Of a stretch of DNA of 35,711 bases, positions 4,775 through 7,654 are shown one piece after another. The notes under the pieces are model-generated. The model saw nothing but the letters and a program-made list of their open reading frames with translations, did no database searches and had not been told where the DNA came from. The translations under genes were made by a program, and so were the position numbers. The first letter of the stretch is position 1, and each line of letters begins with the position of its first letter. The DNA is from Erysipelotrichia bacterium (GTDB taxonomy: Bacteria > Bacillota_I > Bacilli_A > Erysipelotrichales > Erysipelotrichaceae): the NCBI GenBank assembly GCA_012800355.1, contig JAAZJL010000069.1:1-35711 (forward strand). The letters run 5' to 3'.

Positions 4775-6259
4775 ATGGATAAAAAATCAGTAAAGTATAA
4801 CTATCTAATGAATATAATATTAACAATTTCATTAATGATTATCCCTTGGATATCTTTTACTTATTATTCAAGAATTCTTCAAGCGGAAGGTATAGGTAAA
4901 GTAGAATTTGTTAACACAATAGTTAGTTATTTTAATATGATTGCTCAAATAGGGATACCAACATATGGTATTCGTGCATGTGCAAAAGTCAGAGATAACA
5001 AAAAAGCGTTATCAAAGGTTGTTCATGAACTATTAATGATTAATCTAGTTATGCTTTTCTTTACTTATATAATAATGACAATAGCAGTTTTTTCTGTTGA
5101 GAGATTTTATATTGATAAATCTTTCTATTTTATTTATTCATTTATAATGCTATTCAATGCCATTGGGGTTGAATGGTTATATAAAGCGTTAGAGAAATAC
5201 CAGTACATAACAATACGAACAATAGTTGCTAGAACTATTGCATTAATTGCTATAATTGCTTTGGTTCATAAAAAAGAAGATCTTTGGATTTATTCATCAA
5301 TAGTTGTTTTTGTTTCGTATGGAAACTTAATAATAAATTTTTTAAGAATGGGTAAATATGTTTCGTTAAAAAAACAAAATGACTATGATTTTAAAAGACA
5401 CATTAAGCCATTGTTAGTTTTCTTTGGTATTACTGTTACCACAACGATTTACTCTAATTTAAATATTACTGCTCTAGGCTTTATTAAAGGAGATGTAGCA
5501 GTAGGCTATTTTAATGTTGCGATAAAGATTAGAGCAATTTTAGTAAGCATAGTAACTTCTTTAGGTGTAGTTTTGCTTCCAAGGGTCTCGTATTATGTGG
5601 AAAATAAAATGATGGATAGTTTCGCAAATATTAGTAAAAAAGCTTTAAACTTTGTTGTGGTGGTCGGTATACCTTTGGTTGTTTATTTTATTGCCTTTAG
5701 TGAACATTCTATTCGTTTTGTTTCAGGTAATAGTTTTTTGGAAGCTGCAGTTCCTTTTGCTATTATAGTGCCAACAACTTTGTTGATGGGATTAAGCAAT
5801 ACCACTGGTGTTCAAATGCTTGTTCCTTTAGGCAAAGAAAATGCGGTATTAAAATCTCAAATTTATGCTTCAATAGTATGTGCGATTTTATGTCTTGTTT
5901 TAATTCCAAGTTTTGGACTTATTGGTGCATCATTTGTAGCTTTAATTACCGAATTAACAGTATTTGTTGTCCAGTGTTTCTGTTTGCCAAAGGAATATAG
6001 ATATATGTTAAAAGAAATTTTTAATATTAAAGCATTGGTCAGTTCTATTGCAGCTTTGTTAGTAGCATTAATGTTAAAAGATTTTTTCAGTTCAAGTTTC
6101 TGGGTTTTAGCTGTTACTTTTTCAGTTTATATTGTTGTATATGGCTTACTGCTAATATGCTTGAAAGAAAATATAACATTGGAAATACTGCGTAATATTA
6201 AAAAACTCATTAAAAAATTGATAAATAAATCGACAAGCAATGACCACTACAAACAATAA
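4775..6259 (+). CDS. Wzx-type polysaccharide flippase
   Basis: Polytopic membrane protein of 494 residues with about 12-14 hydrophobic segments. The N-terminus (YNYLMNIILTISLMIIPW, then YYSRILQAEGIGKVEF) is characteristic of oligosaccharide flippases of the MATE/MVF superfamily. Such proteins move the undecaprenyl-linked repeat unit across the membrane before Wzy polymerisation. A GAGGGAT ribosome site is spaced properly before the ATG at 4775. The last codons (N-D-H-Y-K-Q) overlap one arm of the AGTGGTCA-type inverted repeat that recurs around the next gene. The reading frame is intact. Confidence 0.9.
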   Translation: MDKKSVKYNYLMNIILTISLMIIPWISFTYYSRILQAEGIGKVEFVNTIVSYFNMIAQIGIPTYGIRACAKVRDNKKALSKVVHELLMINLVMLFFTYIIMTIAVFSVERFYIDKSFYFIYSFIMLFNAIGVEWLYKALEKYQYITIRTIVARTIALIAIIALVHKKEDLWIYSSIVVFVSYGNLIINFLRMGKYVSLKKQNDYDFKRHIKPLLVFFGITVTTTIYSNLNITALGFIKGDVAVGYFNVAIKIRAILVSIVTSLGVVLLPRVSYYVENKMMDSFANISKKALNFVVVVGIPLVVYFIAFSEHSIRFVSGNSFLEAAVPFAIIVPTTLLMGLSNTTGVQMLVPLGKENAVLKSQIYASIVCAILCLVLIPSFGLIGASFVALITELTVFVVQCFCLPKEYRYMLKEIFNIKALVSSIAALLVALMLKDFFSSSFWVLAVTFSVYIVVYGLLLICLKENITLEILRNIKKLIKKLINKSTSNDHYKQ

Positions 6260-6270
6260 AATAGTGGTCA
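6241..6270. repeat. AGTGGTCA-type inverted repeat, copy pair 1
   Basis: TGACCACTA (6241-6249) and TAGTGGTCA (6262-6270) form a perfect 9-bp inverted repeat with a 12-base spacer. The half-site centres are 21 bp apart, two DNA turns. The left arm lies inside the last codons of the flippase gene. The same core returns at 6336-6363, so it is more likely a binding site than a chance terminator; no T-run follows. Confidence 0.8.
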
Positions 6271-6305: not shown

Positions 6306-6334
6306 TTGACTATATGGTACATAAAATGTAAAAT
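6306..6334 (+). promoter_or_regulatory. Promoter of the integrase-domain/PglD fusion gene
   Basis: TTGACT (6306-6311) and TAAAAT (6329-6334) are separated by 17 bases, a good SigA-type match. Transcription should start near 6341, inside the following AAGTGGTCA repeat, which is where a repressor site would be expected. Confidence 0.7.
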
Positions 6335-6335
6335 T

Positions 6336-6363
6336 AAGTGGTCAGGCGATGGTTTGACCACTT
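6336..6363. promoter_or_regulatory. AGTGGTCA-type inverted repeat over the start site, possible operator
   Basis: AAGTGGTCA (6336-6344) and TGACCACTT (6355-6363) form a perfect 9-bp inverted repeat with a 10-base spacer. Half-site centres are 19 bp apart. The repeat begins right after the -10 box and ends just before the AGGGAG ribosome site. Because transcription should begin inside the left arm, most of the hairpin could not form in the mRNA from this promoter, which favours a DNA-level operator. Binding by the downstream fusion protein is an inference. Confidence 0.65.
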
Positions 6364-6376
6364 TTAGGGAGCACAT

Positions 6377-6991
6377 ATGAAAAAGGGAAATAATATCCGA
6401 TTAAGAAAAGATGGTAGATATGAAGCAAGATACGAAAAAGGTAGAACTTCAAATAATAAAATAGTCTACGGTTATTGTTATGGGCAAACCTATCAAGAAG
6501 CTGAAGAAAAAAGAAATCAAAAGATTTCGCAAATAAGACCATTAAAAGAATTAAACTTGCTGATACTAGGAGCTGGAAGTCATGGACAAGAAGTTTATGA
6601 AATAGCAAAATTGCATAGAATGTTTGGAAAGATAGATTTTTTGGATGATGATGAAAGCAAAAATCCTTTAGGGCCTTGCAAAGATTTCGAAAAATACTTG
6701 CCAGAATATAAAGTAGCAATAGCAGCAGTTGGCGATGAAAGTTTAAGGATTAAATGGATGTATCAGTTAGTTGAAGCTGGTTTTGTAATTCCAATATTAA
6801 TTCATCCAGCAGCAATTATTTCCGATAGCGTACAGATAAATTGCGGAACAGTTATTTGTGCCATGGCTACAATAGGAACAAATGCTAAAATTGGAAGAGG
6901 ATGCATTATTTCTTCAGGAGCAACCATAAAAAGAAATGTTATCTTGGAAGACTGGCAATATGTTGATTATGGAGAAGTGGTTAACCACTAA
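6377..6991 (+). CDS. Integrase arm-binding domain fused to a truncated PglD/NeuD-like domain
   Basis: Two-part protein of 204 residues. Residues 1 to about 52 resemble the N-terminal arm-site DNA-binding domain of tyrosine integrases of the Tn916/lambda type: RKDGRY at 10-15, an aromatic strand, IVYGYCYG and TYQEAEEKRNQK. No catalytic integrase domain follows. Instead, residues 60-204 resemble PglD/NeuD sugar acyltransferases, with a nucleotide-sugar-binding start (GAGSHG 65-70) and left-handed beta-helix repeats from IHP (142-144). A gap-free comparison with the neighbouring acyltransferase places Arg186 where the neighbour has its likely catalytic His137. The protein then ends 18 residues later, so the acetyl-CoA half is missing. 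It is probably a DNA-binding regulator sensing a UDP-sugar, not an enzyme. It has its own promoter and flanking inverted repeats, and an AGGGAG site precedes the ATG. Confidence 0.75.
   Translation: MKKGNNIRLRKDGRYEARYEKGRTSNNKIVYGYCYGQTYQEAEEKRNQKISQIRPLKELNLLILGAGSHGQEVYEIAKLHRMFGKIDFLDDDESKNPLGPCKDFEKYLPEYKVAIAAVGDESLRIKWMYQLVEAGFVIPILIHPAAIISDSVQINCGTVICAMATIGTNAKIGRGCIISSGATIKRNVILEDWQYVDYGEVVNH
6976..6989. repeat. 14-bp perfect palindrome AGTGGTTAACCACT
   Basis: Lies over the last codons of the fusion gene (V-V-N-H-stop). Its half-site AGTGGTTA differs from the AGTGGTCA core upstream by one base, so the gene is bracketed by related palindromic sites. It could be a further binding site or a coincidence of the C-terminal codons. 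Confidence 0.5.
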
Positions 6992-7009: not shown

Positions 7010-7654
7010 ATGAAAGATTTAGTAATTATTGGAGCTGGTGGTTTTGGAAGAGAAGTAGCAGAATATGTTAGAGCAATCAATGAAGAAACACCTACATGGA
7101 ATTTTTTAGGTTTTATTGATGATGGTAAAGCAGAGACTCCAGAAGGTCATAGAATTCTGGGCAATTTAGATTATCTATTAGGATTAAAAGAAAAACCATA
7201 TTTTGCTATTGCTATTGCAAATTCAGTAGTTAGAGAAAAAATGGCTAACAGATGTCTTGAAGCTCAATTACCAGCAGCAACAATCATTCACCCAACAACC
7301 TTAATTGGACCAAATTGTGAAATTGGTGAGGGTTGTATAATTTGTAGAAACTGTCACTTAACTACAAATGTTAAAATCGGAAAATTCAACATCATCAATG
7401 GTCGTTGTAGTATTGGGCATGATGCTGTAATGGGTGATTATTGCAGTATGATGACAAGTGCTTTAATTGGTGGTGAAACTAATATCGGAAACCATAACTA
7501 TTTTGGTTTGCGTTGTACAATGATTAACTTAATTGATACGTGTGATCATTGTACTTTTGGTGCTTGTGCTTGTATTGTAAAAGATACAACAGAACCTGGA
7601 ACTTATGTTGGAGTTCCAGCAAAGAAAATTAAACCTTGGATAGGAAATGAATAA
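7010..7654 (+). CDS. PglD/NeuD-family sugar O- or N-acyltransferase
   Basis: Complete 214-residue sugar acyltransferase. The N-terminal domain begins MKDLVIIGAGGFGREVAEYV, a Rossmann-like nucleotide-sugar-binding fold. The C-terminal left-handed beta-helix runs from IHPTTLIGPNCEIGEG through CSIGHDAVMGD to the family ending GTYVGVPAKKIKPW. His137 in GHD is the likely catalytic base by analogy with PglD. It probably transfers an acetyl group to a capsule sugar or its nucleotide precursor. It lies 18 bases after the truncated fusion paralogue, so the two are probably cotranscribed. The sugar substrate is unknown. Confidence 0.88.
   Translation: MKDLVIIGAGGFGREVAEYVRAINEETPTWNFLGFIDDGKAETPEGHRILGNLDYLLGLKEKPYFAIAIANSVVREKMANRCLEAQLPAATIIHPTTLIGPNCEIGEGCIICRNCHLTTNVKIGKFNIINGRCSIGHDAVMGDYCSMMTSALIGGETNIGNHNYFGLRCTMINLIDTCDHCTFGACACIVKDTTEPGTYVGVPAKKIKPWIGNE

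Follow-up and report, generated by a model that had tools for sequence, protein, structure and literature searches.

The arm domain at the N-terminus of the Tn916 integrase (structure 1bb8) has a beta-beta-beta-alpha fold, and the full protein keeps its core-binding and catalytic domains. The acetyltransferases of the PglD/NeuD/PglB group (structures 4m98 and 3bss) are composed of a PglD_N domain and a beta-helix, with a catalytic His and an acetyl-CoA half, and the PglD family enzymes act on UDP-4-amino-sugars, as established for C. jejuni PglD. Reuse of a recombinase-type DNA-binding domain in regulators is also seen among plants: by fold comparison, the AP2/ERF domain has the fold of a mobile-element or recombinase domain, and in the ALOG transcription factors a recombinase DNA-binding domain has been recruited into regulators (PMC3537659). 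However, the AP2/ERF and ALOG proteins are eukaryotic, and carry no attached sugar-nucleotide sensor.

Then, could an integrase arm domain and a PglD-like sensor be combined in one bacterial protein? The window, that is, the whole stretch of 35,711 nucleotides analyzed here, belongs to an Erysipelotrichia genome of 1.48 Mb (G000) and contains, in a capsule gene cluster and on the plus strand at positions 6377..6991, an ATG-started gene for a protein of 204 amino acids with such a configuration. The original prediction had read this open reading frame as an integrase arm-site domain joined to a PglD-like sensor, and the frame is present as described, with RKDGRY at residues 10-15, IVYGYCYG at residues 29-36 and TYQEAEEKRNQK at residues 38-49. 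No Phage_integrase or SAM match was found in the protein with Pfam, which bears out the claim that no recombinase domain follows; with its catalytic domain absent, the protein is not an integrase. Among the papers searched, we found no report of this bacterial arm-PglD architecture. Based on sequence comparison and structure models, we consider it about 60% probable that the fusion is a domesticated one-component regulator, which would act as a sugar-nucleotide-responsive autoregulator of the operon formed by the fusion gene and the adjacent neuD gene.

The predicted arm DNA-binding domain comprises residues 1-55 (6377..6541, plus strand), which share 45-62% identity with the N-terminal arm domains of full-length tyrosine integrases from the same order. 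In a direct comparison with integrase N-termini, the identity was 58-61% over 45-50 residues, with E-values down to 1.9e-15 (in one genome), and these integrases are proteins of 370-400 amino acids from the same family, with Phage_int_SAM_3 and Phage_integrase domains in all four tested against Pfam. Thus, the proposed likeness of residues 1-52 to an integrase arm-site domain holds, although it is the direct comparison that reveals it: residues 1-58 alone gave nothing significant in Pfam or NCBIfam, and the fusion arm domain had no Pfam match, including Arm-DNA-bind_4 and AP2, at the curated cut-offs. Among 20 members of the arm family searched against Pfam, eight touched AP2 (best E-value 0.003) and one touched Arm-DNA-bind_4 (E-value 0.014).

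Structure prediction for the domain alone gave three beta strands (residues 7-9, 15-23 and 29-36) followed by an alpha helix (residues 39-57), with a pLDDT of 86.5. This model fits the Tn916 integrase arm 1bb8 at 1.8 A over 49 residues with 24% identity, although the Z of 4.2 is too low to be notable on its own. Comparison with plant AP2 domains, where the matched structures are DNA-bound, gave a Z of 5.0 (AtERF1 AP2, 1gcc). Since such Z values are common for small domains, the argument is carried by the sequence homology, with which the fold agrees. Foldseek alone returned no significant match for the arm model, and a sequence profile of the arm family searched against the PDB did not match the Tn916 integrase at E-values up to 5, so that the link to Tn916 comes from the fold comparison only. 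RKDGRY is a strand motif that the Tn916 arm domain also has; in the fusion, the core-binding and catalytic domains are replaced by a PglD-like domain.

The linker and a Rossmann-like PglD_N domain, which is predicted to bind a nucleotide sugar and keeps the GAGSHG and DDD motifs, occupy positions 6542..6766 on the plus strand. The profile search identified PglD_N (PF17836) at residues 60-130 with an E-value of 1.4e-10 (42 bits versus a cut-off of 23.4), and Hexapep, also above its cut-off, at residues 152-186, so the second half of the protein is PglD-like as had been claimed. The remaining PglD domain with a shortened left-handed beta-helix follows at 6767..6988 (plus strand). The NeuD/PglB/VioB family TIGR03570 is matched over residues 60-196 only, with 99 bits versus a cut-off of 160.8; this partial match below the cut-off indicates that the acetyl-CoA half is missing. 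Consistently, the model of the whole protein (pLDDT 89) overlays the acetyltransferase domain of Neisseria PglB (4m98) with a Z of 21.4 at 1.5 A over 147 residues, and the overlay ends at chain residue 351, where the acetyl-CoA half would begin.

The original prediction had also placed Arg186 in the position of the catalytic His. The gapless alignment does set KRN, which includes Arg186, against GHD of the next protein, or against GHD or NHN in the short-PglD family described below, but a register shifted by 18 residues, that is, one turn of the helix, fits that family about equally, so that a His replaced by Arg and a deleted His-bearing turn are indistinguishable. Under either register, judging from the sequence, no aligned catalytic His is present, and with the acetyl-CoA half absent as well the fusion protein is not an acetyltransferase. 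It would work most like a one-component regulator with a DNA-binding domain of the integrase arm/AP2 type, in that, by homology and model, a predicted DNA-binding domain and a predicted ligand domain lie in one chain, as in one-component transcription regulators.

Where does the PglD-like part come from? Its closest relatives, with up to 45% identity, are short PglD proteins of about 150-190 amino acids that already lack the acetyl-CoA half. Those of capsule loci (L061, L065, L070 and L069 of R. albus) share the truncated helix at 30-45% identity and often end near -YGxV- like the fusion; however, they have no arm domain, mostly retain the His motif, and have a longer helix. They adjoin LoaP genes and/or genes for initiating sugar transferases, or lie between fnlB-like and fnlC-like genes. 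The sequence comparison therefore suggests that the C-terminal half derives from this widespread family, and the earlier view of a truncated copy of the neighboring NeuD, to which the identity is 28-30% versus up to 45%, is disfavored and has been revised. Short PglD-like proteins without the acetyl-CoA half were noted at L060:8178-8990, L061, L065, L067, L068, L039, L069:8769-9519 and L070:5759-6483. In L060 and on both R. albus plasmids, they are preceded by a small protein with EPSFF, QASFF or QADFF at its C-terminus, and the short PglD of L012 and L017 is itself fused to a similar EPSFF tail. The small open reading frames ahead of the short PglD genes of Ruminococcus albus, of 83 and 78 amino acids, were considered as separate arm-domain genes and rejected because they are unlike the arm domain by eye; the 83-residue one had no significant Pfam match.

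The full-length sugar acetyltransferase gene neuD/pglD is located immediately downstream of the fusion at 7010..7654 (plus strand); its product matches TIGR03570 with 178.9 bits, above the cut-off, and is 95.8% identical in G006, an Erysipelotrichia metagenome-assembled genome of the same genus (record L032). With a gap of 18 bp between them, the two genes are likely in the same operon. As for the surrounding locus (window:57-6259 versus L034), G000 and G006 share 90-93% identity in the fnlB-like and fnlC-like genes and 94-96% in the fusion, neuD and an ABC transporter lipoprotein. The glycosyltransferase and flippase genes in between are only 79-81% identical, and G006 lacks an EpsG-like gene, a pattern as in a serotype-variable capsule core.

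The fusion was found in three of the 316 genomes of the order, namely G000, G006 and G099. The copy in G006 is intact, 94% identical and in the same context. In G099, a 100%-complete genome from another family of the order, the copy is broken by two frameshifts and a stop; its arm domain is 72% identical over the first 29 residues, and it lies directly before a sugar transferase gene. Even samples of the class and of the phylum (the latter may not include Clostridia) yielded no further fusions, and none was found in viral, phage or plasmid collections. Between G000 and G006, the fusion gene has a dS of 0.575 and a dN/dS of 0.044, equal to the 0.041 of the neighboring neuD gene; by part, dN/dS is 0.169 in the arm domain, where sites are few, and 0.024 in the rest. 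The fusion gene is therefore under strong purifying selection.

These data bear on whether the gene could be a functionless recombination accident or an artefact of assembly. Rarity and decay would fit such an origin, as only three genomes of several hundred carry the fusion and one copy is broken. However, it is intact in two separate genomes at 94% identity, with a dS of 0.57 and selection as strong as on neuD. The 94% identical copy elsewhere, together with the broken copy in another family, shows that the fusion is neither an assembly error nor an accident of recent date, and the intact G006 copy also excludes a frameshift hiding a normal C-terminus; what is left of this explanation we regard as extremely improbable. 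The survey of relatives suggested with the original prediction thus recovered the fusion, although it is rare and one of the three copies is broken.

Upstream of the gene, the window contains four copies of the octamer AGTGGTCA, all in the gap before the fusion and within 122 bp. Box 1 (6241..6248, minus strand), box 2 (6263..6270, plus strand) and box 3 (6337..6344, plus strand) are identical in G006, while box 4 (6355..6362, minus strand) has been lost there. The best promoter-like site, a sigma-70-like TTGACT-17-TAAAAT at 6306..6334 (plus strand), ends two bases before box 3, and both of its hexamers are kept in G006 with a diverged spacer. Genome-wide, AGTGGTCA occurs 30 times in the 1.48 Mb, and its sole cluster is the four copies before the fusion, with a chance probability of about 1e-7. 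Boxes 1-3 are identical at 24 of 24 positions between G000 and G006, versus 60 of 103 (58%) in the rest of the intergenic DNA. The boxes, clustered and conserved at a promoter-like site, are thus a candidate operator. AGTGGTCA also resembles the Tn916 arm repeat, a likeness on which our argument does not draw. The broken copy in G099 has GTGGTCAATA...TATTGACCAC upstream. At the end of the fusion gene, a perfect palindrome, AGTGGTTAACCACT (6976..6989, no strand assigned), covers the last codons and the stop and resembles two head-to-head boxes; it is identical in G006, but it is also coding.

Inverted boxes could also act as RNA. Boxes 1/2 would then end the flippase transcript and boxes 3/4 would form a leader attenuator, while the protein would be a sugar-binding scaffold or enzyme accessory with a vestigial N-terminal domain. 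The stems of the pairs 1/2 and 3/4 have predicted energies of -11.2 and -17.7 kcal/mol in G000, and the first pair reaches -19.0 kcal/mol in G006, where a T-run follows; given this possible hairpin and the T-run behind it, pair 1/2 may serve to terminate transcription of the upstream gene. The frequent position of arm-less short PglD genes just before the initiating sugar transferase gene would also suit an accessory role. However, the 3/4 stem is broken in G006 though box 3 is fully kept, a terminator scan of G000 found none, and the dN/dS of 0.17 shows purifying selection on the arm domain. Furthermore, unlike the inverted boxes of the fusion, the same core beside integrase genes, TGGTCA, stands mostly in direct repeats, and these do not fold into a hairpin. 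Consequently, an RNA role in place of an operator appears unlikely to us.

The integrase relatives offer a further view of the boxes. In 11 of 19 related loci, versus 1.29 expected (z 9.1), TGGTCA was found no more than 80 bp from the start or stop of the integrase gene, commonly as pairs 11-13 bp apart, and it is among the most enriched hexamers there, the other top words being ribosome-binding sites and core repeats. Among relatives on viral contigs, it lies upstream in L089, L090 and L093, and downstream in L084, L085 and L093. Such placement beside int genes is the position expected of arm-type sites. Since the integrase relatives carry TGGTCA and the fusion AGTGGTCA, the arm domain has probably retained its DNA site in the fusion and recognizes it there in the promoter of its own gene.

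The best-matching relatives of the arm domain are integrases that form units of a single gene, and inverted repeats of 15-29 bp, perfect or nearly so, flank about ten of the integrase loci. Repeat-bounded cassettes were noted in L038, L048, L049, L054-L057, L059, L077 and L078, and also in L084, L086, L089 and L093, many with TGGTCA-like boxes just inside. In L038 and L048, from two species of one genus, the cassette occupies the same groEL-linked locus in opposite orientations, by which these integrases look like self-inverting switches. The source of the arm thus looks like a cassette of this kind rather than a conjugative element of the Tn916 type. The integrases of L051 (L051:2400-6500), L052 (L052:2700-6000) and L056 immediately precede two NusG/LoaP-like genes with which a polysaccharide cluster begins, and that of L054 is divergent from such a pair; in Erysipelotrichales, a cassette next to a LoaP-like pair may thus act as a phase switch that turns capsule expression on or off. 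These capsule-associated integrases resemble the fusion in the arm domain (47-53% identity), in the TGGTCA boxes beside the gene and in their capsule loci; however, they are full recombinases, mostly bounded by inverted repeats, whereas the fusion lacks a recombinase domain and showed no core-like repeat in its surroundings. As these integrases and the short PglD proteins are both found in capsule loci, the fusion unites two things that already co-occur.

A common arm site would also allow the fusion to work in trans, as a competitor or accessory of the related phase-switch integrases at capsule-locus starts, occupying their arm sites and biasing or blocking inversion. However, no other arm-domain protein was found in G000, G006 or G099, and the lack of a target integrase makes a trans role less likely; the only box cluster of the genome, moreover, is at the fusion's own promoter. 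We therefore hold such a role to be quite improbable, more so than that of RNA elements.

For the autoregulator, the following course may be proposed. The arm domain of a capsule-associated integrase would have become an in-frame fusion with a short PglD-like protein devoid of catalytic activity, and would bind the AGTGGTCA boxes, the same kind of site as at the ends of its integrase relatives. The PglD part, by the known PglD/LbH fold, would trimerize, in which case several arm domains could hold boxes 1/2 and 3/4 together; with box 3 directly behind the -10 hexamer, binding should repress the fusion-neuD promoter. A UDP-amino-sugar, of the NeuD/PglD substrate class, would bind the PglD_N pocket and alter DNA binding, and the level of NeuD would thereby be matched to the sugar-nucleotide supply. 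Given the substrates on which PglD enzymes act, it is plausible that the adjacent acetyltransferase is controlled by a switch that senses its substrate. Weighing against this course are the loss of box 4 in G006, the possible terminator role of boxes 1/2, the inverted order of the boxes where the integrase relatives have mostly direct repeats, the low Z of the match to 1bb8 and the rarity of the fusion. As to the original idea of a capsule-locus regulator, the domain homologies, the purifying selection and the boxes back it, and it is from these that we infer that the protein binds DNA and a sugar nucleotide and controls the locus. More tentatively, and with somewhat less than even odds, the factor may have arisen from the arm of a self-inverting capsule-switch integrase, which kept its arm-site specificity, turned such sites at the promoter of its own gene into an operator and acquired a trimeric sensor of nucleotide sugars, so that metabolite control would replace random phase switching.

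If true, this would show clearly, in a bacterium, how the DNA-binding domain of a recombinase can become part of a metabolite-responsive regulator, and the case would be one caught early, with the source integrases and their sites still present in close relatives. For the plant AP2 family, whose origin from a mobile element has been proposed, it would provide a parallel that can be tested. Sugar-nucleotide sensing would be tied directly to the control of capsule genes, and the short PglD proteins may be sensors in many Firmicute capsule loci.
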